From Fibrobacter sp. (lineage in GTDB: Bacteria > Fibrobacterota > Chitinivibrionia > Chitinivibrionales > Chitinispirillaceae): DNA of 40,190 nt. Position 1 is the stretch's first letter; every line of letters starts with the position of its first letter. The position numbers and the translations under genes are program-made. Shown here piece after piece: positions 18,399 through 26,695 of this stretch. The notes under the pieces were generated by a model that saw only the letters and a list, made by a program, of their open reading frames with translations, searched no databases and was not told where the DNA came from. Location: assembly GCA_012728995.1 (NCBI GenBank), contig JAAYEB010000184.1, positions 1-40,190 on the forward strand, read 5' to 3'.

Positions 18399-19031
18399 TT
18401 TCTGATCCTTTTCGAGATAAAATTGATTCATAAAATAATTTTTCGGAAGAACAGAAAAAAATGGTTAATTTTACGTTTAATTTTTCTGAATCTGAAATTG
18501 GACTGCTTGATTTCGAATCTTTAATTTGTACTGCGTTGGTCGTATCTGCTCAGGATTAATAATTGAATAAAAAAGTTGCAAAAAGCTACCCTGGAAAAAA
18601 GGACTATCGGAGTCATCCGGAAAAGAAAAACAGGAATGAGGATAAAAAACGGTAAAAGGTTACTTAAACCTAAATAGTAACAATCCCTTCACGCGATCTG
18701 CTTCGCGTACATGGCATAAAGAAATAGACCCTGTTAAAATGCAGTAATGGGGATAGCGATTACGACAACGACAATGGTGAAAGTTAGATATTACCTTCAC
18801 AGCCATAAAACCTTTCTGCAATAGTGCCGCTGTGCAGCTCATCGTATATTAATCGTCTCCATTCAGGTTAAATGATTATCAATTTGAAAAACCATCTGCA
18901 TAATACCCAAAAAGTAAGCAAAACAATTTTCGAAAAATCATGTAATTATATAAATAACAACATTATAAAAATAATTAGACATTCTCGTAAAAAATAAAAT
19001 ATATTATTTAAAGTAAGCAAAAGGAATCCGG

Positions 19032-19865
19032 ATGCCATCAATATACAACTATCTGAATTATCGGGAATATTTGAAGGATTTATTCCAGGAGCAGAAACAG
19101 TTCCACAATCCGCTTACTCACAGGGCTGTACTGAAAAAGATGGGTGTTTCTTCTACAGGTTTTCTGTCGAATGTGCTTTCTGGAAGAAAAAACCTTAATA
19201 AAGAAATGAGTGTAAAACTTGGTAAAATTTTAAAACTCGCGACACGTGAACGGCAATATCTGAATCATATGATTGTGTATTCTCAGGCAAAATGCATAGA
19301 AGAAAAAAAAGAATACCTTGATAAACTTCTCGCCATGCGGAAAAGTGAACTGGCATACATTAGCAAGGAACAGTTGTCGCTTTTTTCCAAATGGTATTAT
19401 GTCTATATCCGTGATCTTCTCTGCTTTTTTGATTTCAAAGATGATTATGATGCACTTGCAGCAAAGCTTGATCCGCCTGTCAAACCCCAGGAGGCTGAAG
19501 CGGCAGTTCGTGAACTGGAACGACTGGGGTTCATCACGAAAGACAACCATGGCTATTACCGTGCATCCGAACCTGTTGTAAGTACCGGTGACGAAGTGCA
19601 TTCAGTTCAGCTTGCAAATTTCCAGCTTACTACTATGGACATGGCAAAACGTTCGCTTAAGAATCACCCGCATGAACAGCGCGATATTTCCTTTGTATCT
19701 CTGACCCTCTCAGAAAAAAGCTATGCAAAAGTAAAGTGTGAAATACAATCATTCAGAAAAAAACTTTTACTTATAGCTAAGGATGAAGAGTATCCGGATC
19801 GTATCTGCCAGTGCAACATTCAGCTTTTTCCCGTAACACAAAAACCGGGAGATAATAATGAATAA
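19032..19865 (+). CDS. TIGR02147 family protein (putative regulator)
   Basis: A 277-residue cytoplasmic protein. The N-terminus (IYNYLNYREYLKDLFQEQKQ, residues 4-23) is the family hallmark. It is followed by a helix-turn-helix-like segment (VSSTGFLSNVLSGRKNLNKEMSVKLGKIL, about 37-65) and the DUF4423-type C-terminal half with a winged-helix look (EAEAAVRELERLGFITKDNHGYYRASE). TIGR02147 was defined from paralogs in Fibrobacter succinogenes; function is unproven, but the HTH-like region suggests transcription control. The ribosome-binding site AAAGGAA is well placed. Its end overlaps the next gene by 8 bases, so the two are coupled and probably act together. Confidence 0.85.
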   Translation: MPSIYNYLNYREYLKDLFQEQKQFHNPLTHRAVLKKMGVSSTGFLSNVLSGRKNLNKEMSVKLGKILKLATRERQYLNHMIVYSQAKCIEEKKEYLDKLLAMRKSELAYISKEQLSLFSKWYYVYIRDLLCFFDFKDDYDALAAKLDPPVKPQEAEAAVRELERLGFITKDNHGYYRASEPVVSTGDEVHSVQLANFQLTTMDMAKRSLKNHPHEQRDISFVSLTLSEKSYAKVKCEIQSFRKKLLLIAKDEEYPDRICQCNIQLFPVTQKPGDNNE

Positions 19866-21528
19866 AACTTTATTGCCGATCTCCTGTGTTATGCTCATCT
19901 GCATGGTTTCACTATTTCTGAACCTGGGCTGTTCACCTGAATCAGTTGCAGGTGGCGGAACAGAAGGTGGCAATACCATATGCGGAACTCTTGTCAATGA
20001 TGACAGATCGTTATCTGTTAACGCCAAAGTATACCTTTTACCATCGGAATTTAATCCTGGTATCGAAAATCTGGCTGCTTCCTCAATTTGTACAACTACT
20101 GAAGAAGATGGAGGTTATGTATTTGACAATACACCTCAAGGTGAATATTCCATACAGGCACAAGATACACAAAATGGTAAAAATACACTTATAACCGGGA
20201 TAAAAGTTTCCGGAGTTGATATTGATATACCTGTTGATACTCTAAAAGATCCGGGTGTGATGATAGTAGAAATACCTGATACAACCGGAAATTCAGCCTG
20301 GTATCTGTATGTGTCGGGAACAACCATCCATGTTCCTGTTTCCGGCACCTCGAAATTTATAGCGGTCAACAATGTGCCGGCAAAACAACTTCCTCCAATA
20401 TGCTTTGTAAAGCAAACCGATTCCATTCCGGATATAATTCGTTACAATGTCAAAATCAATTCCAATGATACTGTGTTTGTCAGAAATACTCAATGGGTGC
20501 ATTCCCGCAAACTATATCTCAATACGACTAAAACCGGTGCAGATGTGGACGAAATTGTAACTGATTTTCCTGTTGTTGTCCGATTAAACGCAAATAACTT
20601 TGATTTCCCGCAGGCACAGGCCAATGGCAGAGATATCCGTTTTGTCCTGAATGATTCAGTTCCGCTGGTTCATGAGATCGAGCGATGGGACGTTAGTGCC
20701 GGGCATGGTGAAATCTGGGTCAGAGTTGATACGATTTATGGAAACGACAGCACGCAGTTTATCATGATGTATTGGGGTAATCCTGATACTTCAGACAATT
20801 TTGGGGAAATGACAGTTTTTGATATTGCTCTCGGTTTCCAGGGAGTTTGGCATCTTGACGGGAATACCGATACTGTATATGATGTGACACCGAATCGTTT
20901 TCATGGTGTTCGAAATGGAATTATAACCGAAACATCCGGTATGGTCGGGTCAGGACTGTTGTTTGAGGAGCCCGGTGCTTTTATTGATATGGGGGATGTA
21001 CTCAATGCCGAAAGTTCCGATTTGACCATAAGTGCATGGGTCAAACGTTCTGCAATTGGGCTGCAGACGATTATGGCGAAGTCTGATGGGGGTGATCCCA
21101 ATTCCGGGTATGGATGGACTCTTTCATTTCATACCGCAGACCAGTTGCACTTTTTTACGGCAAGCGGGGGAACATTCTGGGGTGAAGACGGTGTTTTTGA
21201 TTGCTGGTCAAAAGAAGAATTGCCGGTTGTTGATACGACTGCGTGGCATTTCGTGGCAGTGGTATTTGACAGGTCCGGTAAAAATGAATGCCGTCTGTAT
21301 ATTGACGGAGTTGAAATGACCGGTGGTTCAAACGGAGAAGCTGCTGGTGTGAATGTTATAAAAAACGAGGTGTCTTTCAGAATTGGTGCGGAAGCTGACG
21401 GTGACTATCCATGGACAGGATTAATTGATGAATGCATTGTTGCACACACGATAAGAAGTGAATCATGGATACGGTTATGTTACAGCAATCAGGGGCCGGA
21501 AGATAAACTTGTCAAATTTGAAAAATGA
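19858..21528 (+). CDS. Surface lipoprotein with DUF2341 and LamG domains
   Basis: A 556-residue predicted lipoprotein. The signal peptide ends in a lipobox with Cys25 (LNLGC). A GGGTEGGN spacer follows, then a carboxypeptidase-regulatory-like beta domain (about 38-105). A DUF2341 domain is at about 225-315 (KLYLNTTKTGADV, DFPVVVRLN, EIERWD, IMMYWGNPD). A concanavalin-like LamG domain is at about 325-550 (GVWHLDGNTDTVYDVTPNRFHG, LTISAWVKR, WTGLIDECIV). DUF2341-LamG proteins are carbohydrate- or surface-associated in many environmental bacteria. It overlaps the TIGR02147 gene by 8 bases, implying that the regulator controls or senses this lipoprotein; that link is inference. Confidence 0.85.
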   Translation: MNKTLLPISCVMLICMVSLFLNLGCSPESVAGGGTEGGNTICGTLVNDDRSLSVNAKVYLLPSEFNPGIENLAASSICTTTEEDGGYVFDNTPQGEYSIQAQDTQNGKNTLITGIKVSGVDIDIPVDTLKDPGVMIVEIPDTTGNSAWYLYVSGTTIHVPVSGTSKFIAVNNVPAKQLPPICFVKQTDSIPDIIRYNVKINSNDTVFVRNTQWVHSRKLYLNTTKTGADVDEIVTDFPVVVRLNANNFDFPQAQANGRDIRFVLNDSVPLVHEIERWDVSAGHGEIWVRVDTIYGNDSTQFIMMYWGNPDTSDNFGEMTVFDIALGFQGVWHLDGNTDTVYDVTPNRFHGVRNGIITETSGMVGSGLLFEEPGAFIDMGDVLNAESSDLTISAWVKRSAIGLQTIMAKSDGGDPNSGYGWTLSFHTADQLHFFTASGGTFWGEDGVFDCWSKEELPVVDTTAWHFVAVVFDRSGKNECRLYIDGVEMTGGSNGEAAGVNVIKNEVSFRIGAEADGDYPWTGLIDECIVAHTIRSESWIRLCYSNQGPEDKLVKFEK

Positions 21529-21664
21529 ACTTACCGGTAAAGGAATAAACGTTGTTGTAACCACACATAGCAGAATGTCCGATTTGATTTTGGTATGTCT
21601 GTAAAGAGACTTACGCAAAGGAATCGATACTGTTCAGAATTAACTTATATAGAGAGGATTGATT

Positions 21665-23239
21665 ATGAATCCAGAGAAATTCTTCAATAAAACGGCTCGT
21701 ATTTTACTTGGGATAACACTTTTTACTTCAATTGCTTTCGCAGACAACCCCATTATTTCTCAAAGGTTTACAGCAGACCCGAATGCGTTTGTTTTCGAAG
21801 AACGCCTTTATGTTATCTGCACCAGTGACGAAGAAAACGTAGACAGCTATAACCTTATCAACTACACACTAATATCTTCTGATGACATGGTGAACTGGAC
21901 TGATCACGGTCTGGTATTCAAGGTACAAGAGGTTACTACATGGGCCGGGCAGGCATATGCTCCAACAGCCTGTGTTCGTAACGGTAAAGTATGGCTCTAT
22001 TTTCCCAATGGCGCCAACAGTATTGGAGTGGCGGTAGCCGACAAGCCCGAAGGGCCGTATACAGATGCATTGGGAGGACCTCTTATTACCAGAAGCATGC
22101 CCAATTGTGACGTTGGCTGGTTGTTTGATCCTTTTATTTTTCTCGACAGTACAGAAAATGGTGTTGATGCATATCTTACGTTTGGTGGAGGCGAAAACAA
22201 CAACCATCCTTATGGAGCAAATCTCAAAATTATCAAAATCAATGATGACATGATTTCTGTTTCCGGAACAGCGGTTACCGTGAATTCACCAAATTCCTTT
22301 GAGGGACCGTTTATACATAAGTACAACAATAAATATTACTTTTCGTACCCGACAACCGGGGCATCTACAATCGATTACTGCATGAGTGACGATCCGATGA
22401 GCGGATGGGTTCACAAGGGGACATTTCTGGAAAACCCGACACTCAATGGCCAGAATATCAACCAGTATAACAACAGCCACGGCGGGCCGGTCAATTACAA
22501 TGGACAGTGGTATATGTTTTACCATGACCGGCGTATATCGGATATGGTATACAAACGTAATGTTTCTGTCGACCTGCTTCATTACAATGACGACGGCACC
22601 ATTAAGAAGGTCATTGTCACATCTGAAGGGGCTCCGCAAATCAAACTTTTAAACCCTTATGATACAATCCAGTCAGAAACTATCTGCAAACAAAACGGGA
22701 TTGAAACGGAATTCTTTGATGGGCGCAATGTAATGTTGACCGATATTCAGGAGGGCGACTATACCAGTCTGAAGGGAGTTGATTTCGGTGATGGTGCGAA
22801 ATCATTTCAAATACGTGCTGCCAGCGCATCCGGGGGAGGAACTGTCGAAATCAGAACAGGCAGTGAAAACGGTACACTGGTCGGAACCTGTGAGATATCT
22901 GGAACCGGTGGCTGGGGGATATGGGAAACGTTTTCCTGCAATCTGACTGATTGCAGTGGTGTCAAGAACGTTTACTTCGTCTACAAAGGGGCTGGGGAGC
23001 CGTTCCGGCTAGACTGGCTGAAATTTGAGGCTATTCCAACCAGTGTGTTTTCCCGAAAAGGTCTGTCATTACATCAACCTGATAATCGCAGGTTACTAAT
23101 TGATGTCAAGGGCAGAGAAGCACCTGGTCAATTCGGGGAAAAAATGTTTACGCTTACGGGCAGAGCCTTTCAGAAAAAATTAATGAATTATTCAGAAAGA
23201 AAATCAAAAGGTGTGTATGTAATCATGCCCGGTAAATGA
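21665..23239 (+). CDS. Secreted glycoside hydrolase family 43 with CBM6
   Basis: A 524-residue secreted five-bladed propeller glycosidase, probably acting on arabinose- or xylose-containing polysaccharides. The signal peptide is about residues 1-26 (ILLGITLFTSIAFA). GH43 catalytic residues are apparent: Asp38 in TADPNAFVF (base), Asp155 in LFDPFIF (pKa modulator) and Glu213 in SFEGPFIHK (acid). A CBM6-like module is at about 330-450 (TEFFDGRNVMLTDI to FRLDWLKFE). The final 70 residues (RRLLIDVKGRE to SKGVYVIMPGK) resemble a C-terminal sorting-type domain. The start at ATG 21665 is preferred over TTG 21659 because AGAGAGG sits 7 bases upstream of the ATG. Confidence 0.87.
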   Translation: MNPEKFFNKTARILLGITLFTSIAFADNPIISQRFTADPNAFVFEERLYVICTSDEENVDSYNLINYTLISSDDMVNWTDHGLVFKVQEVTTWAGQAYAPTACVRNGKVWLYFPNGANSIGVAVADKPEGPYTDALGGPLITRSMPNCDVGWLFDPFIFLDSTENGVDAYLTFGGGENNNHPYGANLKIIKINDDMISVSGTAVTVNSPNSFEGPFIHKYNNKYYFSYPTTGASTIDYCMSDDPMSGWVHKGTFLENPTLNGQNINQYNNSHGGPVNYNGQWYMFYHDRRISDMVYKRNVSVDLLHYNDDGTIKKVIVTSEGAPQIKLLNPYDTIQSETICKQNGIETEFFDGRNVMLTDIQEGDYTSLKGVDFGDGAKSFQIRAASASGGGTVEIRTGSENGTLVGTCEISGTGGWGIWETFSCNLTDCSGVKNVYFVYKGAGEPFRLDWLKFEAIPTSVFSRKGLSLHQPDNRRLLIDVKGREAPGQFGEKMFTLTGRAFQKKLMNYSERKSKGVYVIMPGK

Positions 23240-23527: not shown

Positions 23528-26500
23528 TTAACTTTCAATCCCACGGGCATATTCAGTTTGAGGATATTTTATTTCCAGAACCTCTTTTCCTTTTGAATGA
23601 AACAATCTGCCGTTTACTTCAATTCCAAACTCCATCTCTTCTTCCTGTAATTGCTTTATAAAAATCCGGTTTCTGGTTATTTTGATATTAAAAAGAATTC
23701 CTTTATGGAAAATGTTGAAATGAACCAGTTCCCATTTGCCAGGAATAACCGGTGCTATTTCAAGATACTCATTATAACGGCTGATACCGGCAAAGCTGCT
23801 TATTACCATATTTACTGTTCCACCCATAACTCCGGTATGAATACCCTCTCTGGTTGTTCCTCCCTGAGAGTCGCAGAGATCACTTTTTAGCGCTGTTATG
23901 AATTTTTCATACATATTCTCTTTCTGATCGGGAAGATATTTGAGAATGGCACTGTGTACAACATGGCTTAGAGTTGAACCATGACTGGTACGTTGAACAT
24001 AGTAGTCATAATTTTTTTTCAGCAAATCCAGAGGATCAGAAATTTCAAATCCAAGCGTTGAAAGGATTTCACACACCTGATCTGGAGGCAGAAGATAGAA
24101 AAGCATGAGCACATCAGCCTGTTTTGAGACTTTGTACCGATCTGGAGAATCATTTTCCGATTTAAGGATTCTGTCGAGTCTGTGAATATCACCATATTTT
24201 TTTCTGTAGGTTTCCCAGTCCAGTTCTTTAAGGTTCAAATAACCGTCAAACTGTTCAATTATTTCCTGTTTGGTAATATTAACAGAAAGATTATGGGAAA
24301 CATTGCTCCATAAGGGTAATTCAGATCTGTTGAAGTTGATTTTTTTGTCAAGTTTTTCAAGGATTTCTGAAGGAAGGGATTCTATAATTTCGGAAGTTTT
24401 TTTTAACAGCCAGCTAACCATGATGTTTGTATAGGCGTTATCTTTTAGACCGGGTATTTTCGAACCGTGATAACTTTCGTGGAATTCATCCGGTCCCATA
24501 ACTGCGCTTATATGGTATTTTCCCCTTTCTTTTTTTGTCATACTGACCCACATACGTGCAATCTCAATCAACATTTCGGCACCATGGTTAAGGATAAAGT
24601 CTGTATCAGAGGTGACTTTGAAATACTCCAGAATATTGTAAGCTATTGCAATTGAAACATGTCTCTGATTTCTGCTCAGATCCGGATCCCACTTACCGGA
24701 AACCGGATTATAGTGTACTTCCTGAGTCTCTTCATCACCAGTATCTGCGGTTTGCCATGGATACATTGCACCTTTACATCCGTTTAGAGCAGCATGTTCA
24801 CGTGCTTTGTCAAGTCTTCTGTATCTATACAAAAGCAATGATTTTGTGATTTCGGGAGAATGAAGGTTAAAGAACGGGAAAATGAACAGTTCATCCCAGA
24901 ATATATGGCCTCTGTATGCTTCTCCTGATAATCCTCTGGCAGTCATTCCGGCATCAAGGGACAGGTTGTGTTGGGATGCAGTTGTAAATAGATGATAGAT
25001 ATGCAGTCGTAGTATTTTCTGGGAGAGCTGGTCGCCTTTAATGATTATATCTGCTTTTTTCCAGATTTCAAACCATTCTTTGATGTGTTCATTCTCTAAC
25101 TGTTCGTAAGTACACTGAGGGTTGCAAAGATTGTGTACCTCACTTTTTGTTGCATGAACAGATACCAGTTTATCTATTGTATACACCTTTTCCGCTTCAG
25201 CTTGAAAAGTAAAGCTGCATGCCGCCGCATTCTTTTCCTCAATACATTTTATTTCAGTATTGTTATCAGCAAAACTGTGTACTGCTTTCATGAAAATGTT
25301 TATATGAGATTCGGATGTTTTGGTGTGAAGAAAAACTGATCCGTCTGGTAAAGCTTTTTTGTTTATTGTTTCAAGATGTCTTGAATTGAGATTTCTGTAT
25401 CTTGGAACACCATCATTTACTACAGATCCATCAAGCCATGAACGTAAAGTTACAGAAGAGGAGTAATTGCAGGGAGTTATTCTGTATCTCAGGGCCCCGT
25501 AATGAGATTGAGCCATTGATGCAAACATAAATGTTTCAATTTTTGTGATACGCGCCTGTGAATCTTTAAACAGAATTGAGCGGTAAACAACCGCTTTTCT
25601 TATATCAAGCTCATGGGTGTACGAAATAATTTCTTCATTAAACGGATCAATAATATCCATGTCATCAATTATCAGTTCAACAAGAAGCCAGTTCGGACAG
25701 TTTACCAGATCGTTATTATATATGGTCCTTCCATGCACAACGGTTGGCAGTTTGTTATAAACTCCGGCGATATATGTCCCGGGGTAATGTGTTTCCCGTA
25801 AGGCTTTGGATCCGGCAAAGCAGCCTCTTGTACCAAAATAACCATTACCAGTACAAGTAAGTGTCTCGCGAAGCAGTTCGTTTTCCGGCTCAAATATTTT
25901 GTAAACAAGTTTCCAGTTATCACTTTCAAACCTTGATTCATAATAGCTGGTAATGGTATGCAGTGAGATTTCTGATATGTCTTCAACTGCGATATCAGCC
26001 CCGTTTTCAATGAGCAACTGTGTGTCGTGATTGCGGCTTACCCCCAAAACGATTGCAAAGTTGCCGTTTTTCCCCGACTGAACACCGGAAATAGAGTCTT
26101 CCACCATAATGCATTCATCATGAGACAGATCAAGATTTTGGGCTGCCTGAATAAAAATATCAGGGTAGGGTTTACCCCTGAGATTCAGTTCCTTTGAAAC
26201 GATCCCGTCAACAACAGTGTCAAAAAGGTCCAGAAGACCTGATTTTTCAAGTACAAGCCGGCAGTTTTTACTTGATGATGCAATTGCTGTCCTGAATCCT
26301 CTTTTTTTCATTTCCTTTATAAGATCTATAGTGCTTTGATAGATTTCAACACCATCATTAAACAGAATCTCCTTGAACATGCTGTTTTTTTGATTGGAGA
26401 GCCCATGGATTGTTATCTTGTCCTTACTGTCATTTTCAGTTCCTTCAGGAAGATCAATTCTTCTGGATGACAGGAATGAAGTTATACCCTCAATGCGCGG

Positions 26501-26695
26501 CTTACCGTCTACATAAAGAATGTAATCCTCATGGGTAAACGGTTCAATCCTGAATGATGTATTTTCGGTTTTTAGATTTCCTGAGTAACTTTTTAAAAAC
26601 GCATCAAACAATTTTTTCCAGGCCTTGAAGTGTATTGCTGCTGTTTTGGTTACTACTCCATCAAGATCGAAAATGGCACCTTTTAACTTGTACAT
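23528..26695 (-). CDS. Beta-phosphoglucomutase / GH65 disaccharide phosphorylase fusion
   Basis: A 1055-residue bifunctional cytoplasmic enzyme. Residues 1-245 are an HAD beta-phosphoglucomutase: FDLDGVV (nucleophile D10, D12), a cap domain, ASSSKN and VEDSISGVQSG. Residues about 265-1050 are a GH65 glycoside phosphorylase (maltose, trehalose or kojibiose type). They have GNGYFGTRG, an acidic GPDEFHE (general-acid Glu near 737), NAYTNIMV, KQADVLML, and the phosphate-binding-type HGSTLSH. The phosphorylase would release beta-glucose 1-phosphate, which the mutase converts to glucose 6-phosphate, so the fusion channels the product. The inserted segment at about residues 75-100 makes the mutase part longer than usual. 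It overlaps the upstream HAD gene by 13 bases (same strand). The disaccharide cannot be told from sequence alone. Confidence 0.9.
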   Translation of the reverse strand: MYKLKGAIFDLDGVVTKTAAIHFKAWKKLFDAFLKSYSGNLKTENTSFRIEPFTHEDYILYVDGKPRIEGITSFLSSRRIDLPEGTENDSKDKITIHGLSNQKNSMFKEILFNDGVEIYQSTIDLIKEMKKRGFRTAIASSSKNCRLVLEKSGLLDLFDTVVDGIVSKELNLRGKPYPDIFIQAAQNLDLSHDECIMVEDSISGVQSGKNGNFAIVLGVSRNHDTQLLIENGADIAVEDISEISLHTITSYYESRFESDNWKLVYKIFEPENELLRETLTCTGNGYFGTRGCFAGSKALRETHYPGTYIAGVYNKLPTVVHGRTIYNNDLVNCPNWLLVELIIDDMDIIDPFNEEIISYTHELDIRKAVVYRSILFKDSQARITKIETFMFASMAQSHYGALRYRITPCNYSSSVTLRSWLDGSVVNDGVPRYRNLNSRHLETINKKALPDGSVFLHTKTSESHINIFMKAVHSFADNNTEIKCIEEKNAAACSFTFQAEAEKVYTIDKLVSVHATKSEVHNLCNPQCTYEQLENEHIKEWFEIWKKADIIIKGDQLSQKILRLHIYHLFTTASQHNLSLDAGMTARGLSGEAYRGHIFWDELFIFPFFNLHSPEITKSLLLYRYRRLDKAREHAALNGCKGAMYPWQTADTGDEETQEVHYNPVSGKWDPDLSRNQRHVSIAIAYNILEYFKVTSDTDFILNHGAEMLIEIARMWVSMTKKERGKYHISAVMGPDEFHESYHGSKIPGLKDNAYTNIMVSWLLKKTSEIIESLPSEILEKLDKKINFNRSELPLWSNVSHNLSVNITKQEIIEQFDGYLNLKELDWETYRKKYGDIHRLDRILKSENDSPDRYKVSKQADVLMLFYLLPPDQVCEILSTLGFEISDPLDLLKKNYDYYVQRTSHGSTLSHVVHSAILKYLPDQKENMYEKFITALKSDLCDSQGGTTREGIHTGVMGGTVNMVISSFAGISRYNEYLEIAPVIPGKWELVHFNIFHKGILFNIKITRNRIFIKQLQEEEMEFGIEVNGRLFHSKGKEVLEIKYPQTEYARGIES

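Follow-up and report, generated by a model that had tools for sequence, protein, structure and literature searches.

In Clostridium thermocellum, biomass is sensed by paralogous pairs of a regulator and a surface sensor, SigI and RsgI (PMC4711584, PMC12203970). The gene pairs described here, which consist of a regulator of the TIGR02147 family and a lipoprotein, resemble this system in logic, not in parts. In both cases, many paralogous pairs are present in a plant-fibre degrader and carbohydrate-binding domains occur in the sensors, whereas the TIGR02147 pair comprises no sigma factor, no anti-sigma domain and no transmembrane helix that connects inside and outside. Accordingly, neither protein of the pair under study gave a Pfam or NCBIfam match to a sigma-factor or anti-sigma domain. 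A second point of reference are the RRNPP systems. Their hallmark is that the gene for a cytoplasmic receptor (250-500 aa) lies next to that for a Sec-exported partner containing the recognition peptide (PMC10075063). The TIGR02147 pairs share with Rap, Rgg, NprR, PlcR and PrgX the adjacency of receptor and exported partner genes, export being deduced from a signal peptide and lipobox in the sequence. They differ in that the TPR peptide-binding domain is replaced by an architecture of HTH, winged helix and helical C-terminal domain, and no RRNPP receptor was among the top 50 Foldseek matches of the regulator. Moreover, the RRNPP propeptide is small (10-100 aa), whereas the partner in the present case is a large surface lipoprotein, and the TIGR02147 pairs reside in Gram-negative phyla.

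In control systems of the FlgM and ExsE/LcrQ type, the activity of a regulator depends on the presence of its exported partner in the cytoplasm, from which the partner is removed by type III export. A comparable link between activity and partner export may exist for TIGR02147, but these pairs use Sec and lipoprotein processing and form many parallel cognate pairs. HigA-type antitoxins, finally, are single-domain HTH proteins with an adjacent toxin; the neighbour of TIGR02147 is instead a lipoprotein, and the resemblance of the regulator to HigA is limited to the N-terminal HTH (NCBIfam 14.9 bits, cut-off 47.7).

TIGR02147 (Fsuc_second) and Pfam DUF4423 are names without function, and the TIGR02147 family description includes neither a partner nor a motif nor any covariation. 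No paper that mentions TIGR02147 was found in the open-licence literature, and the preliminary description of this locus likewise names no known function, even though a description may exist elsewhere; DUF4423 is mentioned in one paper, in passing, for the upregulated Bdellovibrio protein Bd3700 (PMC12546842). Here, we propose that the TIGR02147 protein regulates its own gene and, by means of its C-terminal domain, binds a motif near the N-terminus of the lipoprotein encoded beside it, so that both genes would constitute a cognate two-gene module. The probability of this reading is estimated at roughly 60%.

The Regulator-Lipoprotein Gene Pair

The pair is located in a stretch of 40,190 nt (the window) on a contig from a draft genome of the phylum Fibrobacterota that totals 4.97 Mb (Table 1). 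By both curated models, the regulator is a full-length member of its family, with 249.5 bits for TIGR02147 (cut-off 50; model positions 1-271 of 272) and 106.6 bits for DUF4423 (cut-off 30), which was the sole domain in a Pfam scan of this protein. The coordinates and domain calls of the preliminary description were correct on rechecking, including the overlap of the two genes by 8 nt (19858-19865). In the partner, the lipobox Cys, which is invariant across 45 aligned partners, is followed by SPESVAGGGTEGGNT, a segment that includes GGGTEGGN (residues 32-39). The region 5' of the regulator gene is AT-rich (26% GC). On the other side of the pair, a gap of 130 nt separates the lipoprotein gene from the GH43-CBM6 gene on the same strand, and a search for a terminator-like site in this gap found none. 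Further downstream, the minus strand (23528-26695) encodes a 1055-aa protein that by eye has the look of a HAD phosphatase-GH65-type phosphorylase fusion.

Table 1. Features of the TIGR02147-lipoprotein pair and its surroundings (positions refer to the window).
Feature	Position	Strand	Basis or remark
Direct repeat AAAGTAAGCAAAA, copy 1; candidate for one half of an operator	18911-18923	+	exact match
Promoter-like site TAGACA-18-TATATT	18976-19005	+	consensus match alone; such sites are no commoner than in shuffles
Direct repeat copy 2, AAAGTAAGCAAAA, adjoins ribosome-binding region	19010-19022	+	exact match
TIGR02147/DUF4423 regulator gene, 277 aa	19032-19865	+	ATG start; NCBIfam and Pfam; AF2 pLDDT 93
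Predicted N-terminal HTH, residues 10-66, lambda repressor/HigA-like	19059-19229	+	AF2 helices, Foldseek, weak profile matches
Predicted winged-helix region, residues 139-178	19446-19565	+	AF2; weak Foldseek matches of MarR/IclR/ArsR type
C-terminal subdomain (residues 186-270), proposed to bind the motif	19587-19841	+	covariation with partner motif
Codons V189; Q198; L246	19596-19598; 19623-19625; 19767-19769	+	in C-terminal subdomain
Partner lipoprotein gene, 556 aa	19858-21528	+	ATG start
Signal peptide and lipobox, NLG/C25	19858-19932	+	sequence; Cys25 at 19930-19932
Partner motif GGGTEGGNT, residues 32-40	19951-19977	+	motif position 3 = Gly34 (19957-19959)
CarboxypepD_reg-like beta domain, residues 43-104	19984-20169	+	weak, E 0.0035, under Pfam cut-off
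DUF2341, residues 256-322	20623-20823	+	Pfam 41.5 bits
Laminin_G_3 (ConA-like lectin) domain, residues 382-538	21001-21471	+	Pfam 70.1 bits
Secreted GH43-CBM6 enzyme gene, possible third operon gene	21659-23239	+	Pfam

Pairing in Fibrobacterota

The pairing of regulator and lipoprotein is a phylum-wide rule that goes beyond chance. The genome of the window contains 20 intact TIGR02147 genes and one fragment, and a lipoprotein gene follows in 19 of the 20 intact copies. Eighteen of these partners are visible directly, most of them with an overlap of between a few and a few tens of nt; the nineteenth, on contig C187, is short and was detected through its motif. Using an automatic rule (partner start at -60 to +250 nt, Cys behind a hydrophobic stretch), 98 of 108, 57 of 61 and 101 of 108 Fibrobacterota loci were paired, a total of 256/277, with -4 (ATGA) or -8 as the usual overlap. 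As a base rate, 131 of 1399 predicted genes are lipoprotein-like in a related complete genome. A few TIGR02147 regulators are exceptions without a partner. The family was found in 157 of 168 Fibrobacterota genomes and reaches up to 85 matches in one of them. Hence, the coupled unit and the expansion of the family that the preliminary description had put forward hold well beyond the window, and pairing in relatives, whose absence would according to the same source have spoken against such a unit, was looked for and is present at the loci counted above.

Ten genomes of 2.0-2.9 Mb (G007-G014, G028, G029), which belong to two genera (g5, g15), are devoid of TIGR02147; their relatives have many copies, and the absence is an apparent secondary loss. 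In the genome of the window, contig C469 (L023, 8420-16316) harbors three pairs in a span of less than 8 kb, of which two are arranged in tandem and the third is convergent; a pectate lyase gene adjoins them. Three frames of 850 aa that had the appearance of TIGR02147-lipoprotein fusions (L339-L341) are actually runs of N starting inside a TIGR02147 gene, and a check for plasmid carriage gave no match.

The Partner Motif

The 195 non-redundant partners yield the consensus G-[GTS]-x-[ST]-[ED]-T-x-N-x, which is placed 1-20 residues past the lipid-anchored Cys and scores at least 9 in 133 of 155 partners. This motif is nearly confined to TIGR02147 partners. When half of a complete genome was scored, 8 of 115 lipoprotein-like proteins attained this value, and four of these adjoin TIGR02147 or a fragment of it. 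Within 1.6 Mb of a complete relative, the motif was recognized by eye in six of 131 lipoprotein-like predicted proteins, and five of these six are neighbours of TIGR02147 or a TIGR02147 fragment. The SET-x-N form occurs at 16 places in the genome of the window; the four places in lipoprotein context are all located directly after TIGR02147. A function as generic lipoprotein sorting signal was rejected, as the motif is rare in lipoproteins not beside TIGR02147 (half of the complete genome), and a role on the RNA level is unlikely because wobble positions differ among copies. The sixth carrier in the complete relative is an orphan lipoprotein (G144:C1 125944-127645, minus strand) with the motif-like NSAESGNPEIAG, no regulator and mnmG-like sequence upstream.

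Thus, GGGTEGGN, which had been taken for a spacer in the preliminary description, is instead a linear motif that covaries with the C-terminal subdomain of the regulator (see below). The AF2 model of the window lipoprotein is middling (pLDDT 72) and was therefore used solely for the disorder of the motif region, according to which residues 22-37 are predicted to be largely disordered (pLDDT <50). The partners, mostly 200-570 aa in length, have a CarboxypepD_reg match with E<=0.01 in 33 of 45 cases and differ in their C-terminal parts, which include LamG (10/45), DUF2341 (9/45), LRR (2/45) and, in single members, a CBM or lectin match. Another locus (L249, G144:C1 1012059-1015113) contains four near-identical tandem lipoprotein genes whose products start with CEKDSFTD[PS]RDGQTYRTVQIGNQTWMAENLNY and are FISUMP-like by eye.

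Covariation of Motif and Regulator

In a set of 114 non-redundant pairs, Mantel tests gave a rho of 0.29 (p 1e-4) between the motif and regulator residues 186-270, as compared to 0.09 for the HTH and 0.10 for the winged helix. The 60 aa behind the motif gave a rho of 0.008 against residues 186-270, the rest of the lipoprotein was likewise uncorrelated in these pairs, and the partial correlation was 0.28 versus about 0. In 81 new pairs, residues 186-270 were again strongest (rho 0.24, p 0.0005; 60 aa: 0.03), with the HTH (0.16) and the winged helix (0.17) also weakly correlated with the motif.

A column scan returned regulator residue 246 and motif position 3 as the top pair. Leu, Met or Phe at residue 246 is associated with Gly or Ala at motif position 3, and Ile, Val, Ala, Lys, Ser or Arg with Ser or Thr; in the window pair, Leu246 matches Gly34. 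Since this rule had been found by scanning, it was fixed in writing before 110 further loci were analysed. Out of sample, it was obeyed in 85 of 95 pairs and, once near relatives of training pairs had been set aside, in 75 of 84 (Fisher p 2e-14), and a second rule, W189 with T-N-G, in 78 of 84. Across all non-redundant pairs, 186 of 195 are concordant for Leu/Met/Phe with the Gly/Ala form, and one regulator residue predicts the partner tag about 95% of the time. The codons of residue 246 and motif position 3 do not overlap.

With the Gly/Ala form, which was broadened from Gly following validation exceptions (M with A), phylogenetically independent contrasts on a tree from regulator residues 1-180 were about 9.7:0 (p about 0.002), and with Gly alone 8.1:0 (p about 0.008). 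In the same broadened form, cognate partners were concordant in 95 of 100 cases versus 376 of 680 (55%) for partners swapped within a genome, and none of 5000 within-genome partner shuffles reached the observed concordance. As residue 246 predicts the tag of its own partner, the switch very probably reads its exported partner. A contact between regulator and lipoprotein would be the simplest cause of this covariation, which shared ancestry or base composition do not easily yield.

Fold of the Regulator and Candidate Operators

In the AF2 model of the regulator, an HTH and a helical linker precede a winged helix, and long helices follow in the C-terminal part. Foldseek relates the HTH to the HigA/GraA antitoxins (probability 0.91-0.99), and weak profile matches point to HigA, C.BclI and CI. 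For the whole regulator, Foldseek returned no match with E <0.001, and the DNA-binding assignment was therefore made domain by domain; a viral fold library also gave no match with E <0.001 and mostly HTH proteins. On this basis, a DNA-binding fold with an XRE-type HTH and a winged helix is predicted, which is in keeping with the HTH-like character noted previously. By inspection, the regulator has no signal peptide and no membrane helix.

Across the entire genome of 4.97 Mb, the repeat AAAGTAAGCAAAA has exactly two copies, and each of them lies upstream of the window regulator gene (Markov-shuffle p 0.01-0.05). It is kept as no more than a candidate operator, since its choice followed inspection and the tests covered many regions. 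Operator-like footprints are also predicted elsewhere: GTGTTCYC arrays are found upstream of one TIGR02147 orthologue group in 8 of 8 genomes from four genera, three of the genomes coming from the genus that gave the pattern and five from outside, and, as a merely suggestive case, a second orthologue group has TGTGGAC repeats upstream. Overall, direct repeats with p<=0.05 were present in 9 of 109 upstream regions versus 1 of 66 controls, with several of the nine representing one orthologue group, and among these 109 regions those of most paralogues were without a significant repeat. A single operator common to all paralogues was searched for in the upstream regions and not found.

Operon Context

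Several pairs in the genome of the window head operons with secreted pectin or hemicellulose enzymes, which they may control. The enzymes following or flanking pairs comprise GH43-CBM6 (in the window and on contig C128), GH27-CBM6, GH5, GH53 and a pectate lyase, whose gene lies beside the above cluster of three pairs; other pairs have secreted proteins of unassigned function nearby, or nothing close. Hence, the GH43-CBM6 gene that had been noticed behind the pair in the same direction has counterparts in GH/CBM genes following paralogous pairs, and the idea of a self-contained unit gives way to one that often stands at the head of operons with secreted carbohydrate-active enzymes. The unit might also switch or sense surface adhesins, as the preliminary description had suggested.

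Proposed Mechanism and Alternatives

According to our proposal, the cytoplasmic DNA-binding regulator would act on upstream direct-repeat sites that differ between paralogues and in this way control its own operon, which comprises the lipoprotein gene and in many cases the genes for secreted enzymes that follow. Through about residues 186-270, it would bind the N-terminal motif G-[GTS]-x-[ST]-[ED]-T-x-N of the lipoprotein with which it is paired. As the regulator carries neither a signal peptide nor a membrane segment, it should meet the motif in the cytoplasm, where the simplest ligand would be the unexported or nascent prelipoprotein. The regulator could then report the production of its cognate precursor relative to the speed of export. 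Residue pairs such as 246/motif 3 may tune each paralogue to its own partner and thereby keep the 20-85 parallel circuits of one cell separate. Physical binding, the precursor as ligand, the compartment, the sign of regulation and the control of downstream enzymes are what we infer from the genomic data. A point against this reading is that the exported motif sits outside the inner membrane, so that a cytoplasmic reader could meet it only transiently.

Because the motif leaves the cytoplasm, a bound regulator would report either an unexported partner or a returned peptide. In the latter case, the exported lipoprotein would lose its motif by cleavage, perhaps at the time when the surface domain is shed or attaches to polysaccharide, and the regulator would recognize the imported peptide, as the receptors of the RRNPP pheromone systems do. 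Such a detour would fit an HTH receptor gene that adjoins the gene of a Sec-exported partner, a linear motif that is close to the mature N-terminus and part of a disordered linker, and paralogue-specific circuits in which this motif covaries with a C-terminal receptor domain, and it would account for the variable surface domains (LamG, CBM, LRR) and the adjacent enzymes. It is nevertheless unlikely, considering the size of the partner, which is no short propeptide, the receptor without TPR domain, the two import steps that a Gram-negative envelope would require, and the pairs inspected, beside which there was no protease or importer. Alternatively, the regulator might serve its lipoprotein as a chaperone or targeting factor in the cytoplasm, with HTH-like domains that are inactive on DNA. 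A dedicated chaperone would be in line with the translational coupling and with binding to the cognate motif, but the predicted HTH plus winged-helix fold and the conservation of direct-repeat arrays upstream across four genera render this very improbable. Slightly less probable still, and largely refuted, is mere co-inheritance, with the covariation reflecting shared descent or genome composition and the motif serving as a generic sorting signal. While pairs do duplicate together and the rank correlations are modest, the neighbouring partner regions give about 0 in the same covariation test, within-genome shuffles never match the observed concordance, the independent-pair test yields p about 0.002, and other lipoproteins of the complete genome lack the motif.

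The autoregulatory module proposed here is compatible with a SigI/RsgI-like function, in which polysaccharide is sensed by the surface LamG/CBM lipoprotein and the regulator in turn switches on the neighbouring genes for secreted enzymes. This extension is conceivable, albeit somewhat doubtful. The enzyme neighbours in this genome and the LamG/CBM domains within the partners speak for it; yet a membrane-spanning transmitter is missing, the enzyme neighbours are known from the flanks in this genome alone, and some pairs have no enzyme neighbour.

Chances appear about even that the pairs represent a new signalling class. In this class, a transcription factor in the cytoplasm would recognize, with residue-level cognate specificity, the tag near the N-terminus of the surface lipoprotein that belongs to it, and tens of insulated circuits per cell would each tie a carbohydrate-binding surface protein, together with enzymes, to its own gene, at least in Fibrobacterota and Bdellovibrionota. 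This would be a widespread control system in a plant-fibre-degrading phylum for which no description was found in the open-licence literature. With a residue-level code, binding between a regulator and a lipoprotein could be predicted beforehand and should switch by one or two residues. If true, the model would account for the separate control of dozens of surface lipoprotein/enzyme operons in fibre degraders and for the sensing of export or surface state without a sigma factor, two-component system or membrane-spanning sensor.

Occurrence in Bdellovibrionota

Outside Fibrobacterota, the TIGR02147 family is present in 12 of 12 Bdellovibrionota genomes; the Bdellovibrio records were reached via a 16S primer sequence. 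One highly conserved orthologue (L141, L143-L151, L153) is solo; it is extended at the N-terminus and lacks an exported partner. Apart from this orthologue, most copies precede a gene for a signal-peptide protein, usually with a -4 (ATGA) overlap. Two of these partners are TTTGNP lipoproteins and thus near the TGNP form of Fibrobacterota. In others (L157, L159, L161, L162, L164, L165, L169), GNGG(D/G/N) or GIGGD is located right behind the Sec signal peptide, which is perhaps the local version of the motif.
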